From Pelodictyon luteolum DSM 273 (GTDB lineage Bacteria > Bacteroidota > Chlorobiia > Chlorobiales > Chlorobiaceae): a DNA stretch of 64,000 nt. Of the stretch, positions 14,063-31,737 are shown piece after piece. A program made the translations under genes and the position numbers. Under the pieces are notes generated by a model that was given only the letters and a program-made list of their open reading frames with translations, was not told the DNA's origin and made no database searches. The stretch covers positions 249,001-313,000 of the forward strand of contig NC_007512.1 in assembly GCF_000012485.1 (NCBI RefSeq). The letters run 5' to 3'. The number at the start of each line of letters is the position of its first letter. Positions within the stretch are counted from its first letter, which is position 1.

Positions 14063-14508
14063 CGTCTTTCGGGTACTTATACTTCGTTTTTGGCGTATAT
14101 CCATTTTTTCCCTATATTTTCACATTATAGGAAGCCGCACCACTATGTACCTTCAAACGCGTATTGTGCTTCAGACTGACCCTGCCGACTGACGAAGTTT
14201 CCGGGGGTTGTCAATCTGTTGTAGCATGCGTATAGGAGTTCCGGCGCTCTCCAGTACCCACCTTCCACTACCACGGGCTGCAATGTCCGGTTAAGATCGC
14301 CTGACCATACATCCTTGCCACGCAGCCTTTTCAGGCCCGCGTGCCCTCCCTGCACCTCCCATGCATCGGGGAACCCTTGCCCGTTTCACCCATCAGGCGT
14401 TGCTACGCAATGAACTACTTCATCTACTTTCCGGTGCCTACCGGCTTAGGGGGGCGTTTGTCCAATTGAACCCCTTATGGGCATCGCCATTCTGTAACGG
14501 GAGTGTGT
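14063..14508 (+). other. 446-bp non-coding or remnant block of unknown nature
   Basis: No convincing gene is seen. The first 70 bases look like an ordinary AT-rich intergenic stretch, and the rest (about 14130-14480) is GC-rich. Small inverted repeats are present, for example ccggt-gcct-accgg near 14430 and ggag-ttccggcg-ctcc near 14237. Short frames exist on both strands (14143-14355 minus, 70 codons; 14361-14561 plus, 66 codons) but match nothing I know. The density of short hairpins suggests a structured RNA or the remnant of a mobile element such as a group II intron; neither can be confirmed by eye. Confidence 0.4.
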
Positions 14509-17331
14509 ATGAAAAGGCGTATCCTGAGGCTGATTCTTTTCCTTGCCATGAGCATTTTTGATGATGTGTATGCCAAGGAGTTCGTTGTGAGCGAATCTTC
14601 CGACAACGTGCCGGGATCGCTCCGTGCTGCAATCGATGGCATCAATGCTTCCTCCGACGTGGACAATGTGATTACATTTGCCACCCCCACGGTGACGGTA
14701 AGCAGCGCGTTGCCGACGCTGGTGAACCCGGTGATGTTTGTTGTCCCTGCCAGCGGGGTCAGTGTTGTCGGTTCTGGGCTTATAAACGGAACGGCACTTT
14801 TCGCCGCCTCAGAAAGCTCCTTGGGCGGGTTGGTGAACGGTATGGTTGTGAGTGCTTCGGGAGGGTCAAAGATTGCGGCAATAAAGAACGCAACGGGTGC
14901 CGTGCATATTTCTGGAGATATGGCGGCAGCCCTCACGACAACCACCACCAGTTCATGGTACTCATACGGGATTCATGCCGGTGACGGGTCGATTACCGTT
15001 GACGGAAATCTTTCCGGATCTATTACTGCAACTGCCAAAACCAATTATGCGTATGGGCTCCGCGCCGTCGGTGCTGCAACTATCGGGGGCGACTTGAGCG
15101 GAACCATTGCTGTTACTGCAGGCACCGGATACAGAGCGTACGGGATCTCCTCCGATAATGCGACAACAATCGGCGGCAGTCTGTCGGGCGCCATTACTGC
15201 TGTGGCCGGCAGCTACAGCGCATACGGGATTAAGGCGTCCGCGCTGTATGTCGGTACCGATATAAGCGGTGCAGTCACTTCAACTGCTGGGACCTATGAT
15301 GCCTGCGGTTTAACCCTTGGTGGAAGCCTGACTGTCGGCGGCGATATTTCCGGCACCATTTCGGCGAGTGCTCTGGATGGAGATAAGGCTTACGCCATAA
15401 AGACTAAATCAGCCATTTCCATTGGCGGAGAAGTGTCGGGCACGCTTACGGCGACCGCTTCAGGAAGTGATGCCGCCGGGCTTTACTGTTTTGACAGTTC
15501 CATCCATGGCGCCACCTCCTCCGACCCCGCACGCATCTCAGGCTCAATCAACGCTGTATCGTCGGGAGCTTCTGCCGCCGTCATGGCCTGGACGGAGATG
15601 AACCTCTACGTGACAGGTACGCTCTATGCCGAGGGGGCGTCGGCATACGCCATCCGTTCGGGCATGTTCAACGGTACGGGTGGTTTTACCGACAACACCA
15701 CAGAACGGGTCGACACGGTTGTGCTCGCAAGCGGTGCGGTGCTGACCGGCGGCGTCTATCTTGGTGACGGCGACGACACGCTGATGCTCAGCGGCACTGC
15801 CGATATCCAAAGTGTGCCGTCGCTTGACGGTGGGACGGGGGATGACCGGCTGGTGTTCAGCGGATGGAGCGGGTCGTTCTCAGACGCCATGCAGGGATGG
15901 GAGCACCTTGATGTAGGATCGGGCTCATCGCTCGGCATGGATGCGTTAGGGTCGTTTTCCGGTGAAGTTTCGGTGCTTGAGGGCGCTGTCCTTCGCCCGG
16001 GCGCTGCAGGGGGCCGTGACCGTATTGCGGGGAGCCTTCTGAACCTTGGGCTTATTGAGCTCCGCGACGGTAATGCCCATGGAGTCCTCACGGTGGATGG
16101 CAGCTATACAGGAGGGGGTGTGGTCGGCATGGACGTGGGTGCCGGCAGTGCGGACCTGCTCTCGGTGTCTGGTGCCGTTTCCGGTACCACCACGCTGCTG
16201 CTTTCCATCGCCCCTTCGGTGACGGAGCTTGCCGCTGCCGAGCCCTCACTGCTCATTCATACCGACACTGCCGCTGCTGCCGATGCATTTGTGGTGCAGG
16301 ATGCTACCGATTACGGCCCCTATGTTGCCGGGGTGATGGTGGTGGCGGAAGCTACGGGATCGGCCGACTGGTACTACGGGGTGAGCGGGCTTCATGATGA
16401 TGCGCTGACGGCGCAGGCGCTCATGCCGGTTATTGCGGGTCCGCTTGAGGATTTTGTGCCGCGCTTTTCGGACCGGAAGGCCTACGGAGGCTCATCGGGC
16501 GTTATGCCGGGGTTCGGCGGGGGGTGGACCCGGGCAGGTGAGTCGTGGAGCCGGACAGTGCTTTCCGGCGATGCCGGAACGCTCACTGACGGCACCAGCC
16601 GGTTCGTGCAGCTCGGCTGGGACCTCTGGTACGCCCTCGGCGCGAAGTCTTACCGGGGAGCGGGGGTGTTCGGGGGCACCGGCACGCAGTCTGCCAGCGT
16701 GGTTTCGACCGGGGGCCGCCCTGCCGGCGGTGTTGAGGGGACCAATTACTCCGGCGGGATCTATGCGTTTCTGGTACGGCCGCGCTCGTACCGCCTGGAA
16801 GTGGCTGCGGTGTTCGGGTACCATGAACTTTCACTGAACTATGAGATGAGCTCTCCCGAACATCTCGCCACCGGGAGCCGTATGGTGTCGGCGGAGGGGG
16901 AGCTGCAGCTGGGGCTCGGGGAAGGTCTCGCGCTCTCACCCCGGCTGCAGGCGGTCTGGCGCCATGTGGACGGGTTCGGTCTTGCGCCGCTCTCGACAGG
17001 GCCGCTTATGGTCGAGGATGAGGATGGGCTTATCGGTCTGGCGGGTCTTGGACTCACCCTCAATACGGACTGCCCGGGCTGGTACCTTGTAGCTGAAGCA
17101 ACGGTGCGGGTCGATGGCTCCCCGACGAATGCCGTCCGGTACCCGTTACCCGCAGTCACGCTCTCGACTGAAGCGGAAGCGGTGCTCTGGGGCGGCAGTC
17201 TCACCGTCGGGAACCGTGCCGGCGGCATGCTGGACCCGGTATACTGGCTGAAGGCGGGTGCGCTCGGTTCGGCGGGCTCCATGGAGAGCTACCGGCTCTC
17301 TCTTGAAGCGGGGGTGAAGGTGCCGTTCTGA
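14509..17331 (+). CDS. Autotransporter with repetitive passenger domain
   Basis: This 940-residue protein starts at ATG 14509, with a gggag ribosome site 6 bases upstream, better than the in-frame GTG at 14503. A signal peptide covers about 1-22. The passenger (about 25-620) contains degenerate repeats in which V-G-G-D-[IL]-S-G-x-I-x-A alternates with Y-G-I, a pattern expected to form a parallel beta-helix. The last roughly 280 residues resemble the autotransporter beta-barrel domain and end in phenylalanine, as outer-membrane barrels usually do. It is probably exported by type V secretion and surface-displayed. The passenger's function (adhesion, aggregation) is not evident. It sits alone between the unexplained upstream block and holA. 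Confidence 0.85.
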   Translation: MKRRILRLILFLAMSIFDDVYAKEFVVSESSDNVPGSLRAAIDGINASSDVDNVITFATPTVTVSSALPTLVNPVMFVVPASGVSVVGSGLINGTALFAASESSLGGLVNGMVVSASGGSKIAAIKNATGAVHISGDMAAALTTTTTSSWYSYGIHAGDGSITVDGNLSGSITATAKTNYAYGLRAVGAATIGGDLSGTIAVTAGTGYRAYGISSDNATTIGGSLSGAITAVAGSYSAYGIKASALYVGTDISGAVTSTAGTYDACGLTLGGSLTVGGDISGTISASALDGDKAYAIKTKSAISIGGEVSGTLTATASGSDAAGLYCFDSSIHGATSSDPARISGSINAVSSGASAAVMAWTEMNLYVTGTLYAEGASAYAIRSGMFNGTGGFTDNTTERVDTVVLASGAVLTGGVYLGDGDDTLMLSGTADIQSVPSLDGGTGDDRLVFSGWSGSFSDAMQGWEHLDVGSGSSLGMDALGSFSGEVSVLEGAVLRPGAAGGRDRIAGSLLNLGLIELRDGNAHGVLTVDGSYTGGGVVGMDVGAGSADLLSVSGAVSGTTTLLLSIAPSVTELAAAEPSLLIHTDTAAAADAFVVQDATDYGPYVAGVMVVAEATGSADWYYGVSGLHDDALTAQALMPVIAGPLEDFVPRFSDRKAYGGSSGVMPGFGGGWTRAGESWSRTVLSGDAGTLTDGTSRFVQLGWDLWYALGAKSYRGAGVFGGTGTQSASVVSTGGRPAGGVEGTNYSGGIYAFLVRPRSYRLEVAAVFGYHELSLNYEMSSPEHLATGSRMVSAEGELQLGLGEGLALSPRLQAVWRHVDGFGLAPLSTGPLMVEDEDGLIGLAGLGLTLNTDCPGWYLVAEATVRVDGSPTNAVRYPLPAVTLSTEAEAVLWGGSLTVGNRAGGMLDPVYWLKAGALGSAGSMESYRLSLEAGVKVPF

Positions 17332-17358
17332 ACCCCCGGGGTATCTGTCAGGGAGTTT

Positions 17359-18399
17359 TCAGCCGAGGAGCTGCTGCATCAGGCGGAGCAGGAGGTACTT
17401 TTCGTCAGGGTAAGGGGAAAGACCCTTGAGGGCGGCATCGGTGTCTTTCAGGGCCGTGATCGCCCGTTCTGCCTGGATGGAGGAAAAGGCTCCGGCGTAT
17501 GAGAGGTAGCTTCTGACGAAATACTCCTGCCTGCCGTACATGCCCAGCACTTTTGCAATCTCGCCCTGCGGCATGGCTCGCACTTCAGGCTGGGCTATTT
17601 TCCACAGCCGCATGAAGAAGGTGGTAAGGTAGCGGACGATGTTGCCGAGCCCTTCCTTCTGTCCTTCGCGCTCCATGATCATCAGCGATATGCCGCTCGA
17701 GAGGCGGAGGTTCCTTCCTGCTACCGCTTTTTCCAGTTCAAAGACATTATAGGTTTTCGAGATGCCGACGCACTCGTAGACGTCTGCGGCCGTGATGCGT
17801 CGCTCGCCCTGGCGTGAGGATGCGTAGGTGGTCAGCTTTTCGATTTCCTGGCAGATCTCCCTCGAAGATGGCTGTATGTAAGCAGTGAATGCCTTCAGCG
17901 CTTCCGGGTCGAACTCCCATCCCGCCTCATGGGCGCGTGCGGCCGCGAACAGGTCGGGGGTTTTCAGGAGGGGGAAGTCGTGCCGGAACGATTTCAGGAG
18001 GCTGTAGGGCGGTTTGTCCACATCCTTTTTGTCCAGCTGTTCGGCGTCGAAGACGAGGATGGTGAACTCCGCCGGGTTTTTCATGTAGCCGGCAAACTTC
18101 ATCTCATGCTGTTTCTGCTGGTCCTTGCCTACCGGCTTCTTGATCTTGTCGAACTGGCGGACGACGATGAGCTGGCGCGGGGTGAACATCGGGTACTCGG
18201 AGGCACGGGCGACGAGTTCGCCGGGAGTTATGTCGGGTCCGTAGAGGATGTGTGTGTTGGCCGCCGCCTCCGCTTCGTCAGGAAACGCCGTGCTCCGGAT
18301 GAGCGCCGTGAACTCCTCCTTCAGGAAGCTTTCGGGTCCGTGAAAAAAATAGACCGGCGAAAGGCTGCCGGCAAGGATGTTCTTCTTCAGTGTTTCCAT
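17359..18399 (-). CDS. holA: DNA polymerase III delta subunit HolA
   Basis: This 346-residue protein matches the length and layout of the clamp-loader delta subunit, which opens the beta clamp. Family features seen are [13 protein letters not shown] at the start, a [11 protein letters not shown] segment, an [11 protein letters not shown] helix and [14 protein letters not shown] in the third quarter. The first domain lacks a working Walker A, as is normal for delta. It is transcribed leftwards downstream of ssb with about 70 bp between, so both replication genes may share a transcript. It faces the autotransporter gene tail to tail, 27 bp apart. Confidence 0.88.
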
Positions 18400-18469
18400 C
18401 TGCTGCGTGATGCCTCCGCCGGAGGCCGCTGTCGGCTGCCGGCGGGGCGGTCGGGGGTTGGTTTCGGGT

Positions 18470-18961
18470 TCAGAACGGCAGGTCGTCCTTGTCGTTTTCG
18501 ATCATCGGAGCCGATGGTGCCGTCTGGGGAGGAGGAGCGTCCTGCGGGCCCTGCTGCCGTGCAGGCTGCTGGGGCGGGCTGTAGCTCTGCTGTCCGCCAT
18601 CGCCGTATCCGCTGCCGCCCTCACGCATGCCGCCGAGCATCTGCATGTCGGTGACGACGATGTCGGTCGCGTATTTTTTCTCGCCGGTTTTCTGGTCGTC
18701 CCAGCTTCTCGTCTGGATGCGTCCCTCAACATAGACCTGACGGCCTTTCTTGAGGTACTGGCCGCAGATTTCGGCAAGCCGCCCCCATGCCACGATGCGG
18801 TGCCATTCGGTCCGTTCCTGCATGGCGCCGCTGCTGTCCTTGAAGCTTTCAGAGGTTGCCAGGGTGAAGTTGGCCACGGTCTGGCCCGAGGGAATGGTGC
18901 GGAGCTCGGGGTCGTTGCCGAGGTTGCCGATGAGCATTACTTTATTCAGTCCTCTTGCCAT
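18470..18961 (-). CDS. ssb: Single-stranded DNA-binding protein
   Basis: This 163-residue protein has the SSB OB-fold at about residues 1-105 ([20 protein letters not shown], then [21 protein letters not shown]). A Gly/Gln/Pro-rich disordered linker follows. The acidic C-terminal tip DDLPF recruits repair and replication partners. It forms tetramers on ssDNA in replication and recombination. holA lies directly downstream. Confidence 0.96.
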
Positions 18962-19012
18962 AATGATTGTTCCCCGTGTTTTGGGTTGGATTGAATGGTT
19001 TGGTGTTCCCGG

Positions 19013-19044
19013 AGCCCCCGGGTGCTGTCTGGAGTCGGGGGGCT
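19013..19044 (+). terminator. Intrinsic-type hairpin facing right with no upstream plus-strand gene
   Basis: A 7-bp stem (agccccc / gggggct) with a loop of about 18 bases is followed on the plus strand by TTTTTATT. Both neighbours (ssb and pyrK) are on the minus strand, and reading left there is no T-run. It may end an unannotated plus-strand RNA, or be fortuitous. Confidence 0.45.
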
Positions 19045-19133
19045 TTTTATTATATAGTGCAGTATACGAGTCTCATTCCGGATAACATAGCCATACGGCG
19101 CATTTACTGCAGAATGCAAAGTGCGGTTGCCCC

Positions 19134-19925
19134 TCAGACCATGCGCCCGCCGTCGATGACCGGACCCTCCCGGCAGAGAAGGATGGTTTTTGTCCCGCCG
19201 TCGGGTGCGCTGACCTCCACGCTGCAACCGTAGCAGATCCCGAACCCGCATCCCATGACCGACTCGAGCGAGACTTCAGAAGCAATGCCTGCTTCCCTGG
19301 AGAATCGGGCCACCGCCCGCAGCATCGGGGTGGGTCCGCATGCGAATATCCTCGGGGTGCCTTCCGCCGTGAGTGAGGGAACGAGGGACTCCAGAAGCGC
19401 AAGCACCGTGCCGTGGAACCCTTCCGATCCATCGTCGGTGGCGAACCGGCATCCGGTGAGGCCTTCCGGGAGGAGATCGTCTTTAGTGCGCCCTCCGATG
19501 AGGTTCACGACTTTTTTCCCCATGGCGGCAAGGCGTTTTTCCAGAAAGCGCATCGGGGCGGTGCCGATCCCGCCCGACACGAGGACGGCGGTATCGTAGC
19601 CTTCTGCTCCGGTGCTGAAGCTGTTGCCGAGCGGGCCGAGCACCGACAACTCTGTGCCGGCAGCACATCGGCAGAATATTTCAGTACCCTTGCCGATCTC
19701 CTTGACCATCAGCTTGACTTGGCCGTCTCCGGCGTCGTGGATCGAGAACGGGCGGCGGAGGAGCGGCTGGGTGGTATCGTTCACCCGGACGTTGACGAAG
19801 TTCCCGGGCTCCGCGGTGAGGGAGATTTGGGGGCAGTCGAGGGTGATGAGGGTGACGTCGCGGCTGATACGCCGCGATGCGGCAACGGTCGCCCTGATGT
19901 CGGTGATTGAGCTCTCTCGGGGCAT
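19134..19925 (-). CDS. pyrK: Dihydroorotate dehydrogenase electron-transfer subunit PyrK
   Basis: This protein of about 263 residues has an FAD-binding ferredoxin-reductase fold (RPFSIHDAG, then VSGGIGTAPM) and a NAD-binding lobe (FACGPTPML). A C-terminal [2Fe-2S] cysteine cluster reads CGFGICYGCS with a later Cys in LLCREGPV. PyrK passes electrons from PyrD (class 1B) to NAD+ in pyrimidine synthesis. The frame opens at 19982, but the ATG at 19925 (MPRESS) gives the usual family length and avoids a low-complexity extension; neither start has a clear ribosome site. pyrD is not in the window. Confidence 0.88.
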   Translation of the reverse strand: MPRESSITDIRATVAASRRISRDVTLITLDCPQISLTAEPGNFVNVRVNDTTQPLLRRPFSIHDAGDGQVKLMVKEIGKGTEIFCRCAAGTELSVLGPLGNSFSTGAEGYDTAVLVSGGIGTAPMRFLEKRLAAMGKKVVNLIGGRTKDDLLPEGLTGCRFATDDGSEGFHGTVLALLESLVPSLTAEGTPRIFACGPTPMLRAVARFSREAGIASEVSLESVMGCGFGICYGCSVEVSAPDGGTKTILLCREGPVIDGGRMV

Positions 19926-20126
19926 GGCGGGGTTCGGTTTCAGTTGGCGGACGGCCTGTCGTCCGCAGTCGGTGCTTGTCATCTTAGAAGGGTAATTAAT
20001 GCAGGGGCGTCAACATTTGCAAGCCCCGCCAGCGGGGAAGTATCTTCTCCATATCTTTTGCAGAGTCCTTTGAGAGTTATATCTTTCAATCTTTGATTTT
20101 CATCCATCAATACCAATGTCCGGTTC

Positions 20127-21347
20127 ATGCGAATTCTAACATTTACGGGTAAGGGCGGTGTCGGAAAGACCAGCGTATCGGCGGCAACAGCAGTCAGGCT
20201 GGCAGAACTGGGATACCGTACCCTCGTGCTCTCAACGGATCCGGCACACAGTCTTTCAGATTCATTCAATCTGCCGCTCGGCGCAGAGCCGACCAAAATA
20301 AAAGAGAATCTGCATGCGATTGAGGTGAATCCGTATGTCGATCTTAAGCAGAACTGGCAGTCCGTCCAGAAGTACTATACAAGAATATTCATGGCCCAGG
20401 GCGTTTCGGGCGTCATGGCCGACGAGATGACCATCCTTCCCGGCATGGAAGAGATCTTCTCGCTCCTGCGCATCAAACGTTACAAGTCCTCCGGTCTATA
20501 CGATGTCCTCGTGCTCGATACCGCCCCGACCGGCGAGACCCTCCGCCTGCTCTCCCTGCCCGATACCCTCTCCTGGGGCATGAAGGCCGTCAAGAACGTC
20601 AACAAGTACATTGTCCGCCCCCTGAGCAAGCCGCTCTCGAAGATGTCGGACCGCATTGCATACTACATACCGCCGGAAGATGCCATCGAGTCGGTCGACC
20701 AGGTGTTCGACGAACTTGAGGATATCCGCGAAATCCTGACCGACAATGTGAAGTCGACAGTACGCCTTGTCATGAATGCCGAGAAGATGTCGATCAAGGA
20801 GACCATGCGCGCCCTGACCTACCTGAACCTCTACGGGTTCAAGGTTGATATGGTGCTGGTCAACCGCCTGCTCGATACCAATGAGGACAGCGGATACCTT
20901 GAGAACTGGAAAGCCATCCAGCAGAAATACCTCGGCGAGATCGAAGAAGGATTCTCCCCCCTGCCGGTGACCAAGCTCCGTATGTACGAACAGGAGATCG
21001 TCGGCCTGAAAGCCCTCGAGCAGTTCGCACATGACATGTACGGCGACACCGATCCCAGCGACCTCATGTACGACGAACCGCCGATCAAGTTCGTGCGCAA
21101 CGGCGACATTTACGAAGTGCAGCTGAAGCTCATGTTCGCCAATCCCGGCGACATCGACGTCTGGGTCACCGGCGACGAGCTCTACGTGCAGATCGGCAGC
21201 CAGCGCAAAATCATCACCCTGCCCATCAGCCTCACCGGCCTTGAGCCCGGTGACGCGGTGTTCCGGGACAAGTGGCTGCACATCCCGTTCGACCTCAACC
21301 ATCAGGGCCGACACCAGACGGACAAGCAGTACAGCAACAAGGCCTGA
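20127..21347 (+). CDS. ArsA/Get3-type ATPase with C-terminal HSP20-like domain (copy 1)
   Basis: This 406-residue single-unit ATPase of the ArsA/GET3 family has the deviant P-loop GKGGVGKT at residues 8-15 with the signature lysine Lys9, a switch reading DPAHSLSDSF, and DTAPTGETLRLL near 131. From about 310 the protein continues into an HSP20/alpha-crystallin-like beta domain, a known appendage of bacterial ArsA homologs. There is no cysteine anywhere, so arsenite binding through thiols is ruled out. A Get3-like role in handling hydrophobic proteins is more plausible. It stands 100 bp upstream of csmC, and a second copy lies after csmA. Confidence 0.85.
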   Translation: MRILTFTGKGGVGKTSVSAATAVRLAELGYRTLVLSTDPAHSLSDSFNLPLGAEPTKIKENLHAIEVNPYVDLKQNWQSVQKYYTRIFMAQGVSGVMADEMTILPGMEEIFSLLRIKRYKSSGLYDVLVLDTAPTGETLRLLSLPDTLSWGMKAVKNVNKYIVRPLSKPLSKMSDRIAYYIPPEDAIESVDQVFDELEDIREILTDNVKSTVRLVMNAEKMSIKETMRALTYLNLYGFKVDMVLVNRLLDTNEDSGYLENWKAIQQKYLGEIEEGFSPLPVTKLRMYEQEIVGLKALEQFAHDMYGDTDPSDLMYDEPPIKFVRNGDIYEVQLKLMFANPGDIDVWVTGDELYVQIGSQRKIITLPISLTGLEPGDAVFRDKWLHIPFDLNHQGRHQTDKQYSNKA

Positions 21348-21447
21348 TGGCCTGAGCGGTTTGCTTTGAGGGAGTTTTTTCCTTAGTTTTTAAGAGTACA
21401 GACCATAAACCACAATCGCGGGAAGACCCGCTTAACAGGAGGAAGAT

Positions 21448-21867
21448 ATGTCAGAGTCCTACCAGAAACTCCGCAAGGATTTCAAGGAACTTGAGTTCAC
21501 CGACCGCCTCACCTTTCTTGCCGAAAGTGCACTGCTTACCGGTCAGAGCGCCGTCGTCGGCGGCCTGGAGCTCGCAGGCACCGTGGTCGAGACGGTTTCG
21601 GGCACCGTTGGTTCCCTGCTTGATGCAACCGGAGTCGGCAGCCTCCTCGGCCGTACCGGCGGAGTAGTCGGCGAGACCATCGACCGCGTCGCCATCACCG
21701 TGAAGGACGTATCCCGTTCGGCCGGTGACCTTTACAGCGATGCTGTGAAGAACGTCGAGAACGTGACCGACAACGCAGCCAAGGCCATCGGCGATGCAGG
21801 TGTCAGCGCTTCCGAAGCTGTCAAGAACATCACCGGCTCGTTCCAGAAGCAGACAGGCAAGAAATAA
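21448..21867 (+). CDS. csmC: Chlorosome envelope protein CsmC
   Basis: This 139-residue protein matches the size of CsmC (about 14 kDa) and lies directly upstream of csmA as in other green sulfur bacteria. It has an N-terminal helix ([15 protein letters not shown]) and a glycine/valine-rich amphipathic middle (about 45-85: [18 protein letters not shown]). Its C-terminal part is alanine-rich. It is one of the proteins in the lipid monolayer around the chlorosome. A strong ribosome site (aggagg) lies 6 bases before the ATG, and a small hairpin (gcggg/cccgc at 21418-21431) precedes it. Confidence 0.92.
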
Positions 21868-21990
21868 GAGCTCAGCGCGCTGCTGAAAATCTTTTTGTAT
21901 TTTTTAGCCGATTGCTTTAAATTGAATTAAAGTTTTCATATTCTAGTAAGTAGGTGTATTTCCAATAATAAAATTCCATAAGGAGGAATT

Positions 21991-22233
21991 ATGAGTGGTG
22001 GAGGAGTATTTACTGATATCCTTGCCGCAGCCGGCCGCATTTTTGAGGTCATGGTTGAGGGGCATTGGGAAACTGTCGGCATGCTGTTCGATTCGCTTGG
22101 TAAAGGTACCATGAGGATCAACCGCAACGCTTATGGCAGCATGGGCGGCGGTACAAGCCTCCGCGGTTCTTCACCTGAGGTTTCGGGTTATGCCGTGCCT
22201 TCCAAGGCTGTCGAGTCGAAGTTCGCAAAGTAA
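21991..22233 (+). CDS. csmA: Chlorosome baseplate protein CsmA (precursor)
   Basis: The 80-residue precursor is nearly identical to known CsmA. The mature protein (about 59 residues after removal of a C-terminal tail) forms the paracrystalline baseplate that passes excitation energy from the chlorosome to the FMO protein. His25 in VEGHW, which ligates BChl a, is present. The tail after about residue 60 ([20 protein letters not shown]) is the part cleaved in relatives. A very strong ribosome site (aaggagg) lies 5 bases before ATG, fitting very high expression. One extra Thr sits in the GGGTSLRG segment compared with the C. tepidum sequence as I remember it. Confidence 0.98.
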
Positions 22234-22258
22234 GCACACACGATGTGTTTCTTTCGAG

Positions 22259-22288
22259 GGCAGTGTCGGCCATAGGCTGTACACTGCC
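22259..22288 (+). terminator. Strong intrinsic terminator of csmCA
   Basis: An 8-bp stem (ggcagtgt / acactgcc) with an inner gcc-ata-ggc pairing is followed by eight T. It lies 25 bp after the csmA stop and should end the csmA and csmCA transcripts efficiently. Confidence 0.93.
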
Positions 22289-22487
22289 TTTTTTTTGTCC
22301 GCTCCAACCCTTTTCCGCAGCCCGTCAAGTCACCCCGCTTACCCTTCCGGTTTCATTCATTTATGCACCCGTTTTTCCATTGCATCTCGGGTGAAGGTGC
22401 TGTTGCGTAAATTCCATTAGTTTTTCTATTTTAAAGGTTTCAATGCAGACTTGTCGATAACCGTGTAACGTGATCGGACCCGGGTAA

Positions 22488-24071
22488 ATGGCCAACATCT
22501 CATTATATGTGTCCGGACAGACGGAACTTGCCGATGTCACGGAATTCTTTCAGAAGCAGCTTCTCGGCGAGGGGGAACAGCCCATCGCCTTCTTTGACGG
22601 GGTTTTCTATGAATCCCATCAGGAACGGGTCGGCAACATAGCCTTCCAGGACTACCTTATATACTCCGACCGTGCGGTATATCTCTGGGCGCGTGGCGCA
22701 TCGAAGGACTATCTTGACCGCTTCGAGCTCAGCGCAGTCACAGTGAACAGCCGCAACAAGGACAGCGCTTTCGCCACCCTCAACCTCAAGATCCGCAGGG
22801 AGGAGAAGGAACCGGTCTATGTGATATTCGACATGGTCGAAATCCAGGAGGCTGAGCTTATCATCCGTATGCATACGGTCATGGAGTCGGTCATCGAGGA
22901 ACATCTCGGCACCGGGTTCCGCAAGCCCGTTCCCGACGCCATCGCCCACCGCCTGCTTGACGCAGGCCGAAGCATCTGCATTCCCCGCCAGTTCACCATC
23001 GCCCTTGATGCGCCCTCTCCCTCCCAGCAGGACAGTTCAATCGGCTACGGCCAGGATCTTCTTGAGCAGTACAAGGCCTCGATCGGCTATCCTCCGGGCG
23101 AGGCACTTCCGGGACAGCAGCCGGGACAGGGCTCGCCACGCGGACAGCAGGGCAGAGGTGCCAATCAGCCGTCGGGTCCCTTTGGCGGACTCGAGAACAT
23201 GCTGCCGACTGATCCTGCTTCGCTGAAACGGATTGCCGGGTCCATCAAGGACCTTGTCGGCGAGGCTCCCTTCAAGCTCCGTGACCAGGTGATGAAAGAT
23301 CTGCAGCACGTGCCGGGTGATGTAGCCACCGTGCTGACGGCGGTCAATGAACTGGTGGCAAACATTGCGGGCAACCCCCAGGCAGAGCGTTTCGTCATGA
23401 CGGCCATCAAGACAGCGGTACGCAACGACGGCGTGCTTGGTTCCATCGGCAAGATGATCAAGGTATCGGGGATCGGGGGTGGATCGAGAAAACAGCAGCC
23501 GCAGCGTCAAGAGGGCGGAGCTCCCGGCGGCGGGCGATTCGAGGACGATGAGGACAACACGATCCGCCGCAAAAAAATCTCCATCAGGGATGAGGAGCCC
23601 CGGACGGGCAGAAGTGATTTCGATTTCAAGGACGATGCGTTCGAGGTGCCCCCCATGAACGACGCTCCTCCTCTCGGCAGGAAGAAAATCAAGATTCAGG
23701 CTGACGAGGGCGATGTGCCGGCGCTTGTCAAGGACATGATGGATATGGACCGGCCTGCCGACGAATGTCCCGAAGAGAGCGGTGTCGGAGAGGTCCGGAG
23801 GAAAAAGATAAAGATCATGGAGGCTGAGGGAGAAAACGCTCCAGAGACTGCATCGGAAGATGCGGCGCAGGAGGCAGTTTTCCCTCCTGTAAGAAAAAAG
23901 ATATCGGTGAGGGTTGCGGGGAGTGAGGAGGAGCCGATCCTCCCTGAAGACGTTCTTCTCGACGCGCTTGGCGAACCTGCTCCGGAGAAAAAAGATGCCG
24001 GATGCTACGGCACCATAGAATCCGACCCCCTCATAACGGCGCCGGAGGCGCAGCCGAAAGAGGAGTCCTAG
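22488..24071 (+). CDS. PH-like domain protein with four repeated basic K-K-I motifs (hypothetical)
   Basis: This 527-residue protein has unknown function. Residues 1-145 look like a bacterial PH-type beta domain (AFFDGVFYE, QDYLIYSDRAVYLWARG) ending in a long helix. Residues 175-235 are Gln/Gly/Pro-rich and disordered. Residues 240-330 look helical and globular (LKRIAGSIKDLVGEAPFK). From 350 the tail is strongly acidic but carries four near-identical basic blocks: RRKKISI near 360, GRKKIKI near 397, RRKKIKI near 437 and VRKKISV near 468. The blocks are spaced 30-40 residues apart, suggesting a multivalent binding region. It lies between csmA and the second ArsA-type gene, so a role in chlorosome biogenesis is plausible but inferred. 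No transmembrane segment is seen. Confidence 0.75.
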   Translation: MANISLYVSGQTELADVTEFFQKQLLGEGEQPIAFFDGVFYESHQERVGNIAFQDYLIYSDRAVYLWARGASKDYLDRFELSAVTVNSRNKDSAFATLNLKIRREEKEPVYVIFDMVEIQEAELIIRMHTVMESVIEEHLGTGFRKPVPDAIAHRLLDAGRSICIPRQFTIALDAPSPSQQDSSIGYGQDLLEQYKASIGYPPGEALPGQQPGQGSPRGQQGRGANQPSGPFGGLENMLPTDPASLKRIAGSIKDLVGEAPFKLRDQVMKDLQHVPGDVATVLTAVNELVANIAGNPQAERFVMTAIKTAVRNDGVLGSIGKMIKVSGIGGGSRKQQPQRQEGGAPGGGRFEDDEDNTIRRKKISIRDEEPRTGRSDFDFKDDAFEVPPMNDAPPLGRKKIKIQADEGDVPALVKDMMDMDRPADECPEESGVGEVRRKKIKIMEAEGENAPETASEDAAQEAVFPPVRKKISVRVAGSEEEPILPEDVLLDALGEPAPEKKDAGCYGTIESDPLITAPEAQPKEES

Positions 24072-24194
24072 GGCGGCAGGCCGGGTCCGGCATCGCTTCT
24101 ATGGTGAGGCGTTCCGGCACACGGCGGGCGAGGCCGTTGGTACAGTGTAGTTTCAATAAAGGTCAACTCTCCTCAATAGTTTTTGTTAAGCACC

Positions 24195-25349
24195 ATGAGA
24201 ATTATTCTTTATCTGGGTAAGGGCGGGGTCGGAAAGACCACGGTCTCGGCATCAACGGCCACGGCGATTGCCCGCCGCGGAGGCAGGGTACTGATCATGA
24301 GCACCGATGTGGCCCACAGCCTTGCCGATGCGTTCGGCGTCGAGCTGAGCCAGACCCCCATTGAGGTCGAAAAGAACCTCTTTGCCATGGAGGTCAACGT
24401 GCTGGCCGAGATCCGCGAAAACTGGAACGAACTGTACTCCTACTTCTCCTCCATCCTCATGCACGACGGTGCCGACGAAGTCGTTGCCGAGGAGCTTGCC
24501 ATCGTCCCCGGCATGGAAGAGATGATCAGCCTCCGCTATATCTGGAAGGCCGCCAAATCCGGAAACTATGATGCGGTCGTTGTCGATGCCGCTCCGACGG
24601 GCGAAACCATGCGTCTGCTCGGCATGCCCGAGTCCTACGGCTGGTACTCGGATAAAATCGGCGGCTGGCACTCCAAGGCGATCGGATTCGCTGCACCGCT
24701 CCTCTCGAAATTCATGCCGAAGAAGAACATCTTCAAGCTCATGCCGGAGGTGAACGAGCACATGAAAGAGCTGCACGGCATGCTTCAGGACAAGAGCATC
24801 ACCACATTCCGTGTTGTCCTCAACCCGGAGAACATGGTCATCAAGGAGGCGCTGCGCGTGCAGACCTATCTGAACCTGTTCGGTTACAAGCTTGATGCCG
24901 CCATCGTCAACAAGATCCTTCCCGCGAAATCAGGCGACAAGTACCTCCAGAGCCTCATCGACATCCAGCAGAAGTACCTCCGCGTGATCGAGAACTGCTT
25001 CTTCCCGCTTCCGATCTTCCGTGCCGGGCAGGCAACGGCAGAGGTCATCAACCCGGACCGCCTGTACGAGCTCAGCCAGGAGATGTTCGGTGACAAGAAC
25101 CCTGCCGACGTGCTCTACACCAACGACAGGACCCAGACCCTCGAGAAGGTCGACGGCAAGTACGTCCTGAGTCTATACCTTCCGAACGTCGAAGTGCAGA
25201 AGCTCAACGTGAACATCAAGGGTGACGAGCTCCTGGTGGACATCAACAACTTCCGCAAGAGCATCATGCTCCCGAACGTGCTCATCGGCCGCAAGACGGA
25301 AGGTGCTGATTTCGAGGCGGGAAACCTCAACATCACCTTCGCGAACTGA
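24195..25349 (+). CDS. ArsA/Get3-type ATPase with C-terminal HSP20-like domain (copy 2)
   Basis: This 384-residue paralog of the 20127-21347 protein has the P-loop GKGGVGKT (8-15), [10 protein letters not shown] and [13 protein letters not shown]. The C-terminal HSP20-like domain starts near 310 ([17 protein letters not shown]). Only one cysteine is visible (near ENCFFPLP), which again argues against arsenite binding. The ATG at 24195 aligns with the start of copy 1; the frame extends upstream to a TTG at 24183. It is about 120 bp downstream of the repeat protein and is followed by a strong terminator. The two copies may act as separate homodimers or as a heterodimer. Confidence 0.85.
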
Positions 25350-25403
25350 AGCGCCTGATGCCCTGCCGGAGCAGGCCTTAGTGAACCGGTGTTATAGATG
25401 CAG

Positions 25404-25431
25404 ATGGGCCGCCTTGCTTAAGGCGGCCCAT
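25404..25431 (+). terminator. Intrinsic terminator after ArsA-type copy 2
   Basis: A 12-bp near-perfect stem (atgggccgcctt / aaggcggcccat) with a gctt loop is followed by TTTTCTTTCT. It separates this gene from the convergent folK. Confidence 0.92.
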
Positions 25432-25476
25432 TTTCTTTCTACGCGGTTGAGGGGGTAGGGTCACATCCCAGTGGAA

Positions 25477-25986
25477 TCAGTGCAGACGGAGTCGTTCCCT
25501 AAGGCGCACGGGTACCGACCGGTCGCCGCACGTCCGGAGCATCTGAAGGATGGTTTTTCTGAGGACGGGGTGCAGAGGGTTTGCGATGTCGAGCAGCGGG
25601 ATGAGCACGAATTTTCTGCGGTGCAGTTCCGGGTGGGGAATCCGGAGCGTATCAGTCTCGATTATGCAGTCTGCATAGAGGAGGATATCGAGGTCTATGA
25701 CCCTCGGGCTCCATCTCCGGTATCGTTCGGGCCGGCCGAGTTCCTGCTCTATAGCCTTTGTTGCGCTCCGAAGGTTTTCAGGCGTGAGGCCGGTTTCTAT
25801 CTGTACCACGCCGTTGTAGAATCGTTCCTGTTCCTCTTCCCCGACCGGCTCTGTCATGTAGACGGGCGAGGCTCGGAGCACCTTCGTTTCCGGGAGCGCG
25901 CCGAGCCGACATACGGCTTCCTGCAGGTGACTGAGGCGGTCCCCGATGTTCGATCCCGTTCCGATGTATGCTGTGTGGAGCTTCAT
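25477..25986 (-). CDS. folK: HPPK, 2-amino-4-hydroxy-6-hydroxymethyldihydropteridine pyrophosphokinase
   Basis: This 169-residue FolK transfers pyrophosphate from ATP to hydroxymethyl-dihydropterin in folate synthesis. It has the N-terminal YIGTGSNIGDR, the central RRWSPRVIDLDILLY (normally RWGPRxLDLDI, carrying the two Mg-binding aspartates) and IPHPELHRRKFVLIPLLDI. folB ends 5 bp upstream on the same strand, so the two consecutive folate enzymes are cotranscribed. Confidence 0.95.
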   Translation of the reverse strand: MKLHTAYIGTGSNIGDRLSHLQEAVCRLGALPETKVLRASPVYMTEPVGEEEQERFYNGVVQIETGLTPENLRSATKAIEQELGRPERYRRWSPRVIDLDILLYADCIIETDTLRIPHPELHRRKFVLIPLLDIANPLHPVLRKTILQMLRTCGDRSVPVRLRERLRLH

Positions 25987-25991
25987 CTTCT

Positions 25992-26369
25992 TCAGTCGCG
26001 CTGCATGGTGCAGTCGGCTTCTGCATAGTCGCAGATTCCGTCGACCGGAGGATTGCGCTTGCGGACCTTTATGCCTACTTCGCTGACCGCGGGGAAATCA
26101 CCAAGCAGGTCCCGGGCAATCTCCCAGGCGACAGCCTCGATGAGGAAGTATTTCTTTCCGGTAAGAGCCATGCGGATCCGGCTGTACACCGCCCCGTAGT
26201 CCACTGTTTTCGTGATGTCGTCGTTCATGGCCGCCCCGGTGAAGTCGAAGGTAAGCTCGGCATCGACCTCGTATTTGGCTCCGATCCGGTGCTCTTCACG
26301 GAGCACGCCGTGGTGGGCGTAGAAGACCATGTTCGAAAGCCTGACCGAGGAGCGGGAGATGTGTGTCAT
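25992..26369 (-). CDS. folB: Dihydroneopterin aldolase FolB
   Basis: This 125-residue protein cleaves dihydroneopterin to hydroxymethyl-dihydropterin, the substrate of the next gene's product. It has the family's FYAHHGVLREEH near the start, with the conserved glutamate, YGAVYSRIR in the middle, and KVRKRNPPVDG with the catalytic lysine near the end. It is first in the folB-folK pair and divergent from nadC. Confidence 0.94.
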   Translation of the reverse strand: MTHISRSSVRLSNMVFYAHHGVLREEHRIGAKYEVDAELTFDFTGAAMNDDITKTVDYGAVYSRIRMALTGKKYFLIEAVAWEIARDLLGDFPAVSEVGIKVRKRNPPVDGICDYAEADCTMQRD

Positions 26370-26548
26370 CTTGCGGCGGAAAAAGTTGGCGGCGTGTGTG
26401 TTTCAAACTAACAATGTTGCTCAGAATCGGCTGAATTCAAAATCGAAAAAGATAAAACCGGGGGCGGACCTTTTTTAGGATGGAGCATGGAAAGGAAAAA
26501 GTGTAACTTTACGGGTTCAGTAGATTTTATTAATGGTTGCAAGTAGCG

Positions 26549-27433
26549 ATGAAGATGAAGAATCAGGATTGTCACGATTTTTATGAGGGGTGCCGCTCAC
26601 GGGCGGTGATGCTTGCGCTTGAGGAGGACCGCTATACGGGGGACGTCACCACCATGGCGACCATCGACCCCCAGCAGCAGGGAAGCGCTGTTGTGAGGGC
26701 AAAGGAAGACGGCGTCATCGCTGGTGTCGATGTCGCCGCACAGGTGTTTGCGGCATGCAACCCGTCGCTTAAGCTTGAGGTGCATCGTAACGATGGTGAG
26801 CGGGTTGTACAGGGTGAAAGGGTGTTTGACGTACATGGCCTTCTGGCACCGATACTGCTCGGTGAGCGGACGGCACTGAATTTCATGCAGCGCATGTCGG
26901 GGATTGCAACCAAGACGAGAGCGTTCGTGGACCTGGTGTCCCATACGGAGGCCAGGATCCTCGACACCCGGAAAACCGCTCCGGGGCTTCGTTATTTCGA
27001 CAAAGAGGCGGTGCGCATCGGCGGCGGGCGGAACCACCGCTTCGGGCTGTTCGATCTTATCCTCATCAAGGACAACCATATCGATGCCGCCGGCGGTGTC
27101 GGCCCGGCACTCAACCGGGCAAGGATGTACCGGGAAAAGCATGGTCTCGACGTGAAGATCGAAGCCGAAGTCCGCTCACTCGACGAACTGAGCGCGGCCC
27201 TTGCCTGCCGGCCGGACATCATCCTGCTCGACAACTTCACCATAGACCTCATGCACGAGGCGGTGGAGTATGTGCGCTCGATGCCCTCGGGCGTGCTTCT
27301 GGAGGCATCCGGCAACATGAGTCTCTACAATGTGAAGGCGGTTGCTGAAACCGGAGTCGATTTCATTTCTGTCGGCGAGCTGACCCACAGTGTGCGTGCG
27401 CTCGACCTTTCCATGACCATCACTCTCGGCTGA
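26549..27433 (+). CDS. nadC: Quinolinate phosphoribosyltransferase (NadC)
   Basis: This 294-residue enzyme makes nicotinate mononucleotide from quinolinate and PRPP in NAD synthesis. Type II PRTase motifs are complete: ERTALNFMQRMSGIAT, LDTRKTAPGLR, a GGGRNHRFGL phosphate loop and DLILIKDNHI. DIILLDNF and ISVGELTHS follow near the end. The frame begins at a TTG (26537), but the ATG at 26549 is preferred. acpS starts 7 bp after its stop. Confidence 0.96.
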   Translation: MKMKNQDCHDFYEGCRSRAVMLALEEDRYTGDVTTMATIDPQQQGSAVVRAKEDGVIAGVDVAAQVFAACNPSLKLEVHRNDGERVVQGERVFDVHGLLAPILLGERTALNFMQRMSGIATKTRAFVDLVSHTEARILDTRKTAPGLRYFDKEAVRIGGGRNHRFGLFDLILIKDNHIDAAGGVGPALNRARMYREKHGLDVKIEAEVRSLDELSAALACRPDIILLDNFTIDLMHEAVEYVRSMPSGVLLEASGNMSLYNVKAVAETGVDFISVGELTHSVRALDLSMTITLG

Positions 27434-27440
27434 AGATACC

Positions 27441-27812
27441 GTGGAGATAGGTGTGGACATCGTGGATCTTGTCCGGATCGAAAAAGCCTACGACCGGTAC
27501 GGACGGAAGTTCCTTGAGCGGATCATGACGGGGGAGGAGATCGAACTCTGCCTGAAAAAGCCCTCTCCCCTCGCCAGCATCGCCGGCCGGTTTGCGGCGA
27601 AGGAGGCTGTCGTCAAGGCACTCGGAACCGGCATTACGGCTGCGGTGCACTGGAAGAGCTTCGAGGTCCTGAATGATCCGGCCGGCAAGCCGTTCGTTCG
27701 CTCCTCCCAGCCCGGCCTGCTGCCGGAGGGATGTTCCATCAAGATCTCCATCGCCCACGACAGGCATTCCGCAGTGGCGACAGCGCTTCTTTGCCGGGGC
27801 CCTGAGTCCTGA
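27441..27812 (+). CDS. acpS: Holo-[acyl-carrier-protein] synthase AcpS
   Basis: This 123-residue enzyme loads the phosphopantetheine arm from CoA onto apo-ACP. It has GVDIVDLVRIEKA, with the Mg-binding aspartate, and GRFAAKEAVVKALGTGI, with the catalytic Glu/Lys. The start codon is GTG at 27441, 7 bp after nadC. It runs into a bidirectional terminator. Confidence 0.95.
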   Translation: MEIGVDIVDLVRIEKAYDRYGRKFLERIMTGEEIELCLKKPSPLASIAGRFAAKEAVVKALGTGITAAVHWKSFEVLNDPAGKPFVRSSQPGLLPEGCSIKISIAHDRHSAVATALLCRGPES

Positions 27813-27885
27813 GGGGGTTCCCCGGCGAGGGGGGATCGGCAGGGTGCGGGCGGGCGGTAATGCGCTGCAGGGAAGCAAAAAAAAA

Positions 27886-27915
27886 GGCAGGATGCCCGGG
27901 GGTCCGGGTCCTGCC
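27886..27915. terminator. Bidirectional terminator between acpS and tig
   Basis: A GC-rich inverted repeat (ggcaggatgccc / gggtcctgcc) is flanked by a run of A on the left and TTTTT on the right. It can therefore stop both the rightward acpS and the leftward tig transcripts. Confidence 0.92.
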
Positions 27916-27945
27916 TTTTTCACGTTCCTCCGTTCGGCCAGCGCG

Positions 27946-29226
27946 TCAGCCCCTGTGGTCGGGAACCGGAGTCGCCTCGTCGGTGATGCTCACTTTAGCT
28001 TTGATGATTTCGTAGATCTTTTCTTTCGTGATGGTGTCGGTGACATAGTCGCGGAAGTCTGCTGACATGTAGGTCTTCATGAGCTCTTCGGCGTTCATTG
28101 CGGTATTCTTTGCTGCCTCTTTCTCGGCGTACTCCCTGATGGCAGCTTCGTCGATTTCGAGGTTGTTCATCTCAGCGATCTTCTGGCTGATGACGAGCCA
28201 GCGGGCGTGGCGCTCGGCGTTTGGCTGCATGGCAGTCTGGAACTGGTCGGTGTCGAAGGCTTTCGGGAAGCTGCCGCCCATCTGGCGCTTGGCGTTTTCC
28301 ACGAGCATGTTCGAGAACGACGCAACCATTGTTTTCGGGGTTGCAACCGGGTTCTCGTCAATCAGTTTTGCCGAGATGGACTCGAGCAGGTCCTCTTCTG
28401 ATTTCATGGAGAAATGCTCATCGAGCTGGATCTTGACATCAGCTTTGAAGTCCGCAACGTTCTCGAAGCGCTGGCCGGTGATCTCTTTGACGAGTTCATC
28501 GGTAAGCTCAGGCAGCTCCATGCGCTTGACTTCGCTGATGGTGACCCGGAAGTTGACGGGAGCATCTCCCTCGTTCTGCCCTGGGGTTTCAACTACCACG
28601 GTTTCTCCGGCTTTTTTTCCTGCGATGGCTTTGCCGAAGGGGTTGTCTTCCGGCAGGTATTCCAGATTGAAGTGGTGGTTTTCGGTCTTGCCTTCGCCCT
28701 CTTCACCCTCTTCAGTGAGTTTCACCACATCGCCGATGACGGTGTCAGTAGCAGTGGCAGCTTCGTCGACGCTGACCATGGTGCCGTGGCCCTTGAGGAT
28801 GAGGTTGATTTCCTTTTCGACGGCGGCATCGTCAATGGTGTAGACGGAGCGGGTGAATGAGTAGCTGCTGAAATCTTTCAGGTCGAACTCGGGGTGCACT
28901 TCATAGCCGAGGCGCACCGTGAGCTGCTCGGGCGTGAAGGTGAAGTCTATCATGCCTGCGCGGCTGGCGGTCTTGATCTTGTCTGATTCGACGATGTCCC
29001 CGAAATGCTTCGAGGCAAGTTTTTCTGCGATGGAGGCTTCGATGGCAGGGCCGGCGAGTTTCCTTATCAGGCCTGCAGGAGCGTGGCCTTTGCGGAACCC
29101 CTTGAGCTGTACGGTCTTTTTGGCCTCTTCAAGTTCCTGTTCGTAATCGTTGGCGAATTCGTCCGAGGTGAAGATGATCTCCAGTTCCTGTTCGGTTTCG
29201 CTGATGTTCTTGATATTCTTTTGCAA
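27946..29226 (-). CDS. tig: Trigger factor
   Basis: This protein of about 426 residues is the ribosome-bound chaperone trigger factor. It has the N-terminal ribosome-docking signature (VQLKGFRKGHAPAGLIRKLAG, normally GFRxGxxP). A divergent FKBP-type domain lies in the middle, and a helical C-terminal cradle reads LLESISAKLIDENPVATPKTMV. No ATG fits. Either TTG 29256 or TTG 29226 must start it; the latter, reading M-QKNIKN, has a weak agagag site and matches the start I remember for relatives. An M16 protease gene is immediately upstream on the same strand. Confidence 0.93.
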   Translation of the reverse strand: MQKNIKNISETEQELEIIFTSDEFANDYEQELEEAKKTVQLKGFRKGHAPAGLIRKLAGPAIEASIAEKLASKHFGDIVESDKIKTASRAGMIDFTFTPEQLTVRLGYEVHPEFDLKDFSSYSFTRSVYTIDDAAVEKEINLILKGHGTMVSVDEAATATDTVIGDVVKLTEEGEEGEGKTENHHFNLEYLPEDNPFGKAIAGKKAGETVVVETPGQNEGDAPVNFRVTISEVKRMELPELTDELVKEITGQRFENVADFKADVKIQLDEHFSMKSEEDLLESISAKLIDENPVATPKTMVASFSNMLVENAKRQMGGSFPKAFDTDQFQTAMQPNAERHARWLVISQKIAEMNNLEIDEAAIREYAEKEAAKNTAMNAEELMKTYMSADFRDYVTDTITKEKIYEIIKAKVSITDEATPVPDHRG

Positions 29227-29310
29227 GGCTCTCTGTGGTTTGGTGATAATGGTCAAAAATCAAAGTCCAAAAGATACAAATTATAACCGGTATTTAAAAC
29301 AGCGAAGCCC

Positions 29311-30576
29311 TCAGCGGGAGGGCCGGTAGACGAGTGTGGAGAGCGGAGGCTCGAGGATGAGGTCCCGGGCGGCTTCTCTGATGTCCAGTGGGGTGAGCGC
29401 TTCGATTTTGGCAGTTTTTTCTTCCGGGGGGACATACCGCCCGAAGTAGGAGATGTCGGTGGCGACCTGCGACATCCTGCGGGTCATCTTTTCCATTCCC
29501 ATGATGTGAGATCCGAGTAGCTTTGCTTTTGCCGTTTCGACTTCACCGGGATCGGGATGCAGGAGGGCAGGGCCGTGGAGCAACTCTTCGATGAGCTTGA
29601 GGGCGGTGTCGATTTTCAGTGCGTCGGTGCCGGTATAGATGTTCAGGGTGGTGAGGTCGTCATAAAACGAGACGGCTGAATAGGCGCTGTAGGCCAGCCC
29701 GCGTTTTTCACGCAGCTCAAGGTTGAGCAGCGAACTCATCCCGCTGCCGAGCATGGAGTTGAGCGCCATTGTGGCATAGAACAGGCGGTCGTTGCGCCCT
29801 GCGGCCGTTCCCTGCACGATCTGCGACTGCGAGATCCGTTTTTTCAGTGTTTTGTTGAACGGCCGGTAATCCTCCGGACGGAACATCATGCGCGTTGCGC
29901 ACCCGGAAGACATATCCGCTCTATTGAGAAACCGTTCCGCGAGCCCGGTGATCTCGGCGTGGCGGACATTGCCTGTGGCGCTGAGGATCATCTTCGAGGG
30001 GCGGTAGTGTTCCCGGATGAACGCCGTGAGGTGGCTGGCCGATATTCCCTCTACGCTCTCCATGGTTCCGAGTATCGGCCGTCCCAGCGGGTGGCGGGGG
30101 AAGGATCGGAGGTCAAACTCCTCGAACACCATCTCTTCCGGCGCGTCCTCCACGCTGCTGATCTCCTCCAGTACCACCTCTTTTTCCTTCTCGATCTCTT
30201 CGGGAGGGAACACCGGGTCCGATACGAGATCGGCGAGCAGTTCGAACGAAGCCTCCAGGTGCCGGCTGAGGCAGCGGAGGTAGATGCAGGTATGTTCCTT
30301 GGTGGTCCAGGCGTCAAGGTAGCCGCCGTGCTTTTCGATGTCCCGTGCGATGTCCAGATAGGAGCGGCGTCCGGTGCCCTTGAAGATGGCATGTTCGATG
30401 AAATGCGCGAGCCCCGCGGCGTCTTCGGGGTCGTCGCGCGAGCCGGCTTCAATGAGGATGCCGAGCGTCACACTCTCAACCGACGCCACGCGGTCCGTCA
30501 CGACCCTCAGGCCGTTGGGGAGCCGTTCCTCAATAACCGCTTCATTGGTATGTGTCGCTCTCTGCTGCCGCATCAT
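29311..30576 (-). CDS. M16 family zinc metalloprotease (insulinase/processing-peptidase type)
   Basis: This 421-residue protease has the inverted zinc motif HFIEH (His58, Glu61, His62), with the third ligand expected near 138 in the EEISSVED region. The C-terminal half repeats the fold without the motif (RGLAYSAYSAVSFYDD), as in one-chain M16B enzymes. No signal peptide is evident, so it is probably cytoplasmic. It precedes tig by 84 bp and may be cotranscribed with it. Its substrates are unknown. Confidence 0.9.
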   Translation of the reverse strand: MMRQQRATHTNEAVIEERLPNGLRVVTDRVASVESVTLGILIEAGSRDDPEDAAGLAHFIEHAIFKGTGRRSYLDIARDIEKHGGYLDAWTTKEHTCIYLRCLSRHLEASFELLADLVSDPVFPPEEIEKEKEVVLEEISSVEDAPEEMVFEEFDLRSFPRHPLGRPILGTMESVEGISASHLTAFIREHYRPSKMILSATGNVRHAEITGLAERFLNRADMSSGCATRMMFRPEDYRPFNKTLKKRISQSQIVQGTAAGRNDRLFYATMALNSMLGSGMSSLLNLELREKRGLAYSAYSAVSFYDDLTTLNIYTGTDALKIDTALKLIEELLHGPALLHPDPGEVETAKAKLLGSHIMGMEKMTRRMSQVATDISYFGRYVPPEEKTAKIEALTPLDIREAARDLILEPPLSTLVYRPSR

Positions 30577-30707
30577 CCGAAAAATTTCTGGTCCTCTTCA
30601 TTGGAATTGAGAGCAATGTAGTTTTTATTCTTATGTTTAAAAACAGAGGCGCTCACTGGCGGAGCGTGCGCCCTTCCGGAGGGGCCGAACTACCTTATAG
30701 CCGATTC

Positions 30708-31697: not shown

Positions 31698-31737
31698 AGG
31701 GCCGGTTTTTTTCGTTCACCATACCCCTAAATGCACC

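Follow-up and report, generated by a model that had tools for sequence, protein, structure and literature searches.

Why should two ATPases of the ArsA/Get3 type enclose the genes for two chlorosome proteins? The first-pass annotation of the window (the whole 64,000 nucleotide stretch analysed here, from a genome of the class Chlorobiia that forms a single contig of 2,364,842 bases) proposed that they are chaperones delivering envelope proteins to the growing chlorosome. No assembly factor is known for this organelle, whose biogenesis is described by two rival models.

Two Get3d-type ATPases enclose csmC and csmA

The open reading frames and the sequence bear out the gene order first reported, ArsA1-csmC-csmA-PHL-ArsA2, on one strand (20127-25349, forward). 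The upstream member, ArsA1 (20127..21347, 406 aa), is a Get3d-type ATPase with a C-terminal ArsA_HSP20 alpha-crystallin domain, as judged by Pfam, TIGR00345, synteny and phylogeny. It is followed by csmC (21448..21867), encoding chlorosome envelope protein C (Chlorosome_CsmC, PF11098, E 2.6e-71), and csmA (21991..22233), encoding the chlorosome baseplate protein (Bac_chlorC, PF02043, E 1.6e-34). Between csmA and ArsA2 lies a gene for a PH-like protein of 527 aa not described before, here named PHL (22488..24071). The downstream member, ArsA2 (24195..25349, 384 aa from the ATG), is again a Get3d-type ATPase with an alpha-crystallin domain, assigned from Pfam, an AlphaFold model and a fold match to 8egk. 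A terminator scan placed a strong intrinsic terminator with a 14-pair stem at the end of the block (25402..25433, forward). A probable terminator also follows csmA (22258..22299, forward; stem GGCAGTGT...ACACTGCC, then T8). Its loop exceeds the limit of the scan and it was therefore found by direct reading of the sequence. PHL and ArsA2 may thus form their own transcript, and with terminator-like stems 3′ of both csmC and csmA a single operon is doubtful. Beside the cluster is an ORF of 942 aa (14503-17331) that contains beta-rich repeats and whose C-terminus resembles that of autotransporters.

Both ATPases match Pfam ArsA_ATPase (E 1.9e-118 for ArsA1, 1.7e-81 for ArsA2) and carry the deviant Walker A motif GKGGVGKT. 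This P-loop, and the cysteine counts of 0 in ArsA1 and 1 in ArsA2, agree with the first-pass annotation, as do the HSP20-like C-terminal domains (PF17886, E 1.1e-19 and 5.5e-19, respectively). Among orthologues, cysteines number 0-2 in ArsA1 and 1-2 in ArsA2, and a motif scan found no zinc-binding CXXC in the orthologues of either or among the upstream and downstream orthologues. Scores for TIGR00345 (289.9 and 230.7 bits) exceed its cut-off of 135, and ParA/MinD-type models match only weakly, far below the GET3/ArsA models. Against NF050088, the NosAFP equivalog, the scores of 146.3 and 139.8 bits lie below the curated cut-off of 325; by this sequence measure the two proteins are relatives, not equivalogs, of NosAFP. 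The AlphaFold model of ArsA2 (mc242579b6ed1) contains an alpha-crystallin domain with seven strands and matches NosGet3d (8egk) over its full length (TMq 0.73, 399 columns). Residues of the P-loop and of both switch regions (I and II) are conserved in the two proteins, and ATPase competence is plausible. ArsA2 differs from ArsA1 in having STDVAHS for STDPAHS and DAAPTGET for DTAPTGET. Both ATPases belong to the Get3d family (Barlow 2023) and are not arsenite pumps.

In total the genome encodes six full Get3/ArsA ATPases, of which only ArsA1 and ArsA2 flank csm genes; the paralogues P3-P6 have no csm linkage. P3 lies between two sulfide:quinone reductase-like genes (L072, 2822-7108; G000:C1, about 72821-77107). 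Elsewhere in this genome, a gas-vesicle-like cluster with AAA ATPases and GvpL/F-like genes has a small heat-shock-like gene and, directly after it, one for an ArsA-type ATPase that lacks an alpha-crystallin domain (L075, 4955-6453; G000:C1, about 810954-812453). Here both Get3d domains occur as separate adjoining genes, beside the cluster of another organelle.

The block is retained across the Chlorobiia

Sixty Chlorobiia loci, picked by csmC, were compared. All 60 have ArsA1-csmC-csmA-PHL-ArsA2 on one strand, 55 of them complete and five cut by a contig end. An orthologue of ArsA1 stands directly upstream of csmC at every locus (60/60, clade support 100). Given this recurrence, the arrangement is not due to chance, and the synteny of both ATPases with csmCA, which the first-pass annotation had named as a check, holds throughout. 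Loci of family f1 share the flanking genes holA, ssb, a pyrK-like gene, folK, folB, nadC and acpS. Families f3 and f4 have none of these flanks and f2 has few, mostly displaced; the block is kept in all three. Within f1, identity to the window copies is about 86-99% for ArsA1 and ArsA2 and mostly 45-75% for PHL and the flanking genes, the values for PHL and the flanks being higher in the closest genomes (e.g. L044, L046). In a sister genus (g2, genome G016), a CsmE-like gene of the CsmA family is separated by about 4 kb from a Get3d of very divergent sequence, which is encoded on the other strand (L112, 2960-8024); coordinates are close in G002 and G020.

The module recurs beside csmA in the Chloroflexota

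Chloroflexales loci were found by a scan with the sequence of Chloroflexus CsmA, which matched the Chloroflexus loci at 100%. In all 29 loci recovered, a Get3d gene lies directly upstream of csmA. PHL lies directly downstream in 27/29, and the remaining two loci end at that point. The order is Get3d-csmA-PHL-PHL-Get3d, with the PHL genes in tandem. Most of these clusters contain a third, degenerate Get3d-like gene without the P-loop lysine motif. In L079 (14129-15244) and its equivalents in L082, L087, L093, L099 and L104 the P-loop is lost (e.g. FTAHHQLQQSA) and the length is similar; this gene probably encodes a pseudo-ATPase subunit. The most divergent CsmA-bearing Chloroflexota genome, G676, which we take for a member of the Chloroheliales from its distant CsmA, has Get3d-csmA-PHL-PHL and no adjoining downstream Get3d.

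According to one description, no chlorosome protein other than CsmA can be recognised in more than one phylum (PMC9316378). Of the 301 Chloroflexota genomes examined, 19 encode CsmA, and the PHL profile (A1) matches these same 19 (19/19) and none of the others (0/282). The association is strong by Fisher's test (2e-30, not corrected for kinship), although the value is a description and not a probability, since the genomes are related. The same profile matches 89/98 Chlorobiia, with some of the nine negatives ending at contig ends (e.g. G017), and 0/296 other Bacteroidota. Both phmmer (down to 2e-13, PHL genes being the only matches) and hhalign (98.2% probability, E 3e-14; 97.5% in a second comparison) support homology of PHL between the phyla. 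A search of plasmids with PHL found nothing. PHL is the component that tracks CsmA exactly in the Chloroflexota sample; the first-pass annotation lists the protein but overlooks this, as well as its I-x-I/V tails. These comparisons cover the chlorosome bearers of the Chlorobiia and Chloroflexota. For Chloracidobacterium (Acidobacteriota, the third chlorosome phylum), a paper mentions csmA and not its neighbours.

Distribution and phylogeny of the ATPases

The Get3d family is more widely spread. Homologues (E<=1e-40) were found in 172/272 csmA-less Chloroflexota, mostly as one copy, so Get3d is not confined to phototrophs. Counted among six scored candidates per genome, a limit that caps the numbers, each of the 19 csmA-bearing Chloroflexota has 4-5 copies, and csmA-less genomes mostly 0-1. 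That Get3d with an alpha-crystallin domain is widespread in csmA-less Chloroflexota weakens its published link to photosynthesis.

Quick trees placed the ArsA1 orthologues in one group (support 96) with the upstream genes of Chloroflexales and G676 and with further paralogues from Chlorobiia, P3 and P4 among them. This group holds no sequence from a csmA-less genome in the sample, for which almost only the best match to an ArsA2-led profile was taken, so that rarer ArsA1-like copies in csmA-less genomes could be missed. The downstream Get3d of Chloroflexales clusters with Chlorobiia P5 (support 100), again with chlorosome bearers only in the sample. ArsA2, in turn, groups with Get3d from both csmA-bearing and csmA-less Chloroflexota (support 100). 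The downstream position is thus taken by ArsA2 in Chlorobiia and by a P5-type gene in Chloroflexales. The idea that both flanking ATPases are simple orthologues between the phyla was rejected, as the upstream genes form one clade and the downstream genes are different paralogues. A restriction of Get3d to chlorosome bearers was likewise rejected. The absence from relatives without chlorosomes that the first-pass annotation had anticipated fails for the Get3d family and for ArsA2; it stands for the ArsA1 type within the sample and fully for PHL.

Taken together, the ATPases flank csmC-csmA throughout the Chlorobiia and Get3d flanks csmA in the Chloroflexales, which upholds the dedicated chlorosome link first proposed. 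The block is very probably a module dedicated to chlorosomes.

PHL has a PH-like head and a tail with a recurring motif

PHL belongs to no Pfam or NCBIfam family and has at best a weak match to bPH_3 in Pfam. Its AlphaFold model (m6b33b8aac08a) comprises a PH-like domain (residues ~1-170), a helical middle (~243-326) and a remainder that is disordered, the low-complexity tail. The head is predicted as seven strands and a helix, with pLDDT mostly above 90. PH and PTB folds top the list of its PDB matches with modest scores (best E 4e-4). These matches, together with conservation in two phyla, support its earlier description as PH-like. It had also been called a repeat protein, and the tail does carry four R/K-K-I-x-I/V repeats, located by motif scan on the forward strand: RKKISI (residues about 361-366, 23568..23585), RKKIKI (about 398-403, 23679..23696), RKKIKI (about 438-443, 23799..23816) and RKKISV (about 469-474, 23892..23909). 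A tail peptide of this kind is IRRKKISIRDEE.

With the pattern [KR][KR]x?[IV]x[IV], PHL tails of family f1 contain 2-6 copies each (mean 3.28 vs 0.19 after shuffling). In f2-f4 there is one copy, placed 2-7 residues before the stop in 10/10 proteins (e.g. RKKIKINIG, KRIKINID, KKKIKIRVE). Such a C-terminal motif, within seven residues of the end, is found in 1/872 other proteins of the same loci. Moreover, the motif has a direction, with 151 forward and 8 reversed occurrences in PHL tails. Of the tandem Chloroflexales genes, copy b has 1-6 motifs; copy a has no K/R-K-I-x-I/V motif and two IPLRR repeats in its place. In L079, the repeat in the tail of copy a (10301-11422) reads (E/A)IPLRR(R/K). 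The divergent PHLs of G676 fit the motif poorly.

A possible assembly route and its alternatives

In small heat shock proteins, the alpha-crystallin domain has pockets at its sides in which an I-X-I motif at the C-terminus docks (PMC3158665). As the neighbouring ATPases carry alpha-crystallin domains, docking is the simplest reading of the PHL tail motif. Resting on motif and domain, the proposal that the I-x-I/V tails dock on Get3d is tentative, with chances that we put a little short of even. Solved structures of Get3d show the alpha-crystallin domain lying against the dimer at the Get4 site; no partner or function of the domain is known, and client binding does not need it (PMC10248533). 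With the domain packed in this way its groove may be unavailable, which argues against docking. The same authors anticipate partners yet to be found, shared among photosynthetic bacteria through conservation (PMC10248533).

A mechanism can nevertheless be outlined. The PH-like head and helices of PHL would sit on the nascent baseplate or envelope, or on the membrane, and the K/R-K-I-x-I/V peptides, one to several per protein, would be displayed on its long tail. To judge from motif and domain, these could bind in the groove at the side of the Get3d alpha-crystallin domains. The tethered dimers, by means of their hydrophobic chamber and ATP cycle, would keep hold of envelope proteins that are hydrophobic or amphipathic and then let them go into the lipid monolayer as it grows, with CsmA as the first candidate client and CsmC as a probable one. 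In vitro, binding of a tail-anchored protein has been shown for AtGet3d and NosGet3d, which also hydrolyse ATP (PMC10248533). CsmA and CsmC are not tail-anchored, so the analogy with Get3 gives a mechanism and not a client. We give a probability of about 0.5 to the main reading, in which PHL is a chlorosome-specific scaffold and Get3d uses ATP to hold CsmA, perhaps CsmC too, and to release it. That the Get3d ATPases chaperone Csm proteins at all, with clients that we infer, we consider slightly more probable than not. A single conserved machine in at least two phyla, with Get3d recruited to the PHL scaffold by a handshake between alpha-crystallin domain and I-x-I/V motif, is a possibility towards which we lean less. 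Against the best explanation are the motif-less copy a, the poor fit of G676, the downstream Get3d that differs between the phyla and does not adjoin the block in G676, and the probable terminator after csmA.

As an alternative, the cargo ferried to the monolayer in the Get3d chamber might be glycolipid, quinone, wax or bacteriochlorophyll, with the PHL head reading the target surface. A density consistent with phospholipid in the AtGet3d chamber (PMC10248533), the PH-like fold of PHL and the build of the chlorosome, a lipid monolayer around pigment, all favour such carriage. However, the invariant neighbour across the phyla is csmA, a protein gene and not a lipid or pigment gene, and the client bound by Get3d in vitro was a tail-anchored protein (PMC10248533); we hold this reading to be rather unlikely. 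General stress chaperones or holdases, merely co-regulated with the csm genes, would account for the 172/272 csmA-less Chloroflexota with Get3d, for the grouping of ArsA2 with these and for the alpha-crystallin domains, which are typical of holdases. That too is unlikely, for two phyla share the linkage to csmA, the ArsA1/upstream and P5/downstream clades contain chlorosome bearers only in the sample and PHL follows CsmA exactly.

A role in positioning or segregation would liken Get3d to its ParA/MinD relatives, such as McdA of carboxysomes, with PHL as the adaptor by which chlorosomes are spaced or anchored. The proteins share the deviant Walker A superfamily, as the weak ParA/MinD-type matches reflect, chlorosomes are organelles fixed beneath the membrane, and PHL resembles a multivalent adaptor. 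Yet TIGR00345 scores over its cut-off and far above those models, ArsA2 has the fold of Get3d, and positioning leaves no place for an alpha-crystallin domain, which makes it improbable. As for arsenite, six ArsA homologues in a green sulfur bacterium were described as serving its export (Eisen 2002, as cited in PMC11269200), and the likeness to the ArsA pump lies in the Pfam ArsA_ATPase domain. That pump has two tandem ATPase domains, whereas each protein here has one and lacks a cysteine metal site. Scores for the arsenical-pump equivalog model are 119.8 (ArsA1) and 85.5 (ArsA2) against a cut-off of 650, and no arsB was recognised in window positions 14000-32000 or among the neighbours at the fetched loci. 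Arsenite export is thereby effectively refuted. The first-pass annotation had already thought a thiol-based form of it very unlikely, a judgement reinforced by the few cysteines, never as CXXC, and the lack of signs of export.

Relation to known systems and significance

Get3d members in green sulfur and green nonsulfur bacteria, several per genome, have been noted before (PMC10248533). The likeness to Get3d proper (AtGet3d, At1g26090; NosGet3d, All4481, PDB 8elf and 8egk) is that of a Get3/ArsA-fold ATPase with a C-terminal alpha-crystallin domain. That paper mentions neither chlorosomes, Csm proteins nor synteny and names no partner; here Get3d flanks csmA, with a candidate partner between. 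Get3d and its multiple Chlorobium copies are thus already known (PMC10248533), and what is new is the module. With the GET/TRC40 pathway (Get3, Get4/5, Get1/2) it shares the ATPase core and, presumably, reliance on a hydrophobic chamber. Unlike that pathway, the block has no Get1/2 or Get4/5, its candidate clients are not tail-anchored, and in Get3d the alpha-crystallin domain occupies the Get4 site (PMC10248533). PHL tails resemble the C-terminal extension of small heat shock proteins in their K/R-rich I-x-I/V pattern, which in the deep families stands at the very C-terminus. PHL itself, however, has no alpha-crystallin domain; the putative receptor domain is in another protein, the Get3d ATPase. 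We found no description of a linkage between csmA and arsA/Get3 in the literature searched, which took in few subscription papers, and an earlier notice is possible.

The module common to Chlorobiia and Chloroflexales points to an unrecognised chlorosome-assembly system and supplies candidate assembly factors, the Get3d pair and PHL. It also corrects the annotation of these genes as arsenite exporters. PHL is a concrete partner candidate for Get3d, a family that persists in chloroplasts and whose function and partners are not known, and the route by which CsmA reaches a monolayer becomes a question addressable by gene deletions in a transformable organism. If the proposal is true, it would provide a first role and a first partner for the Get3d alpha-crystallin domain, as well as a route by which targeting leads into a lipid monolayer.
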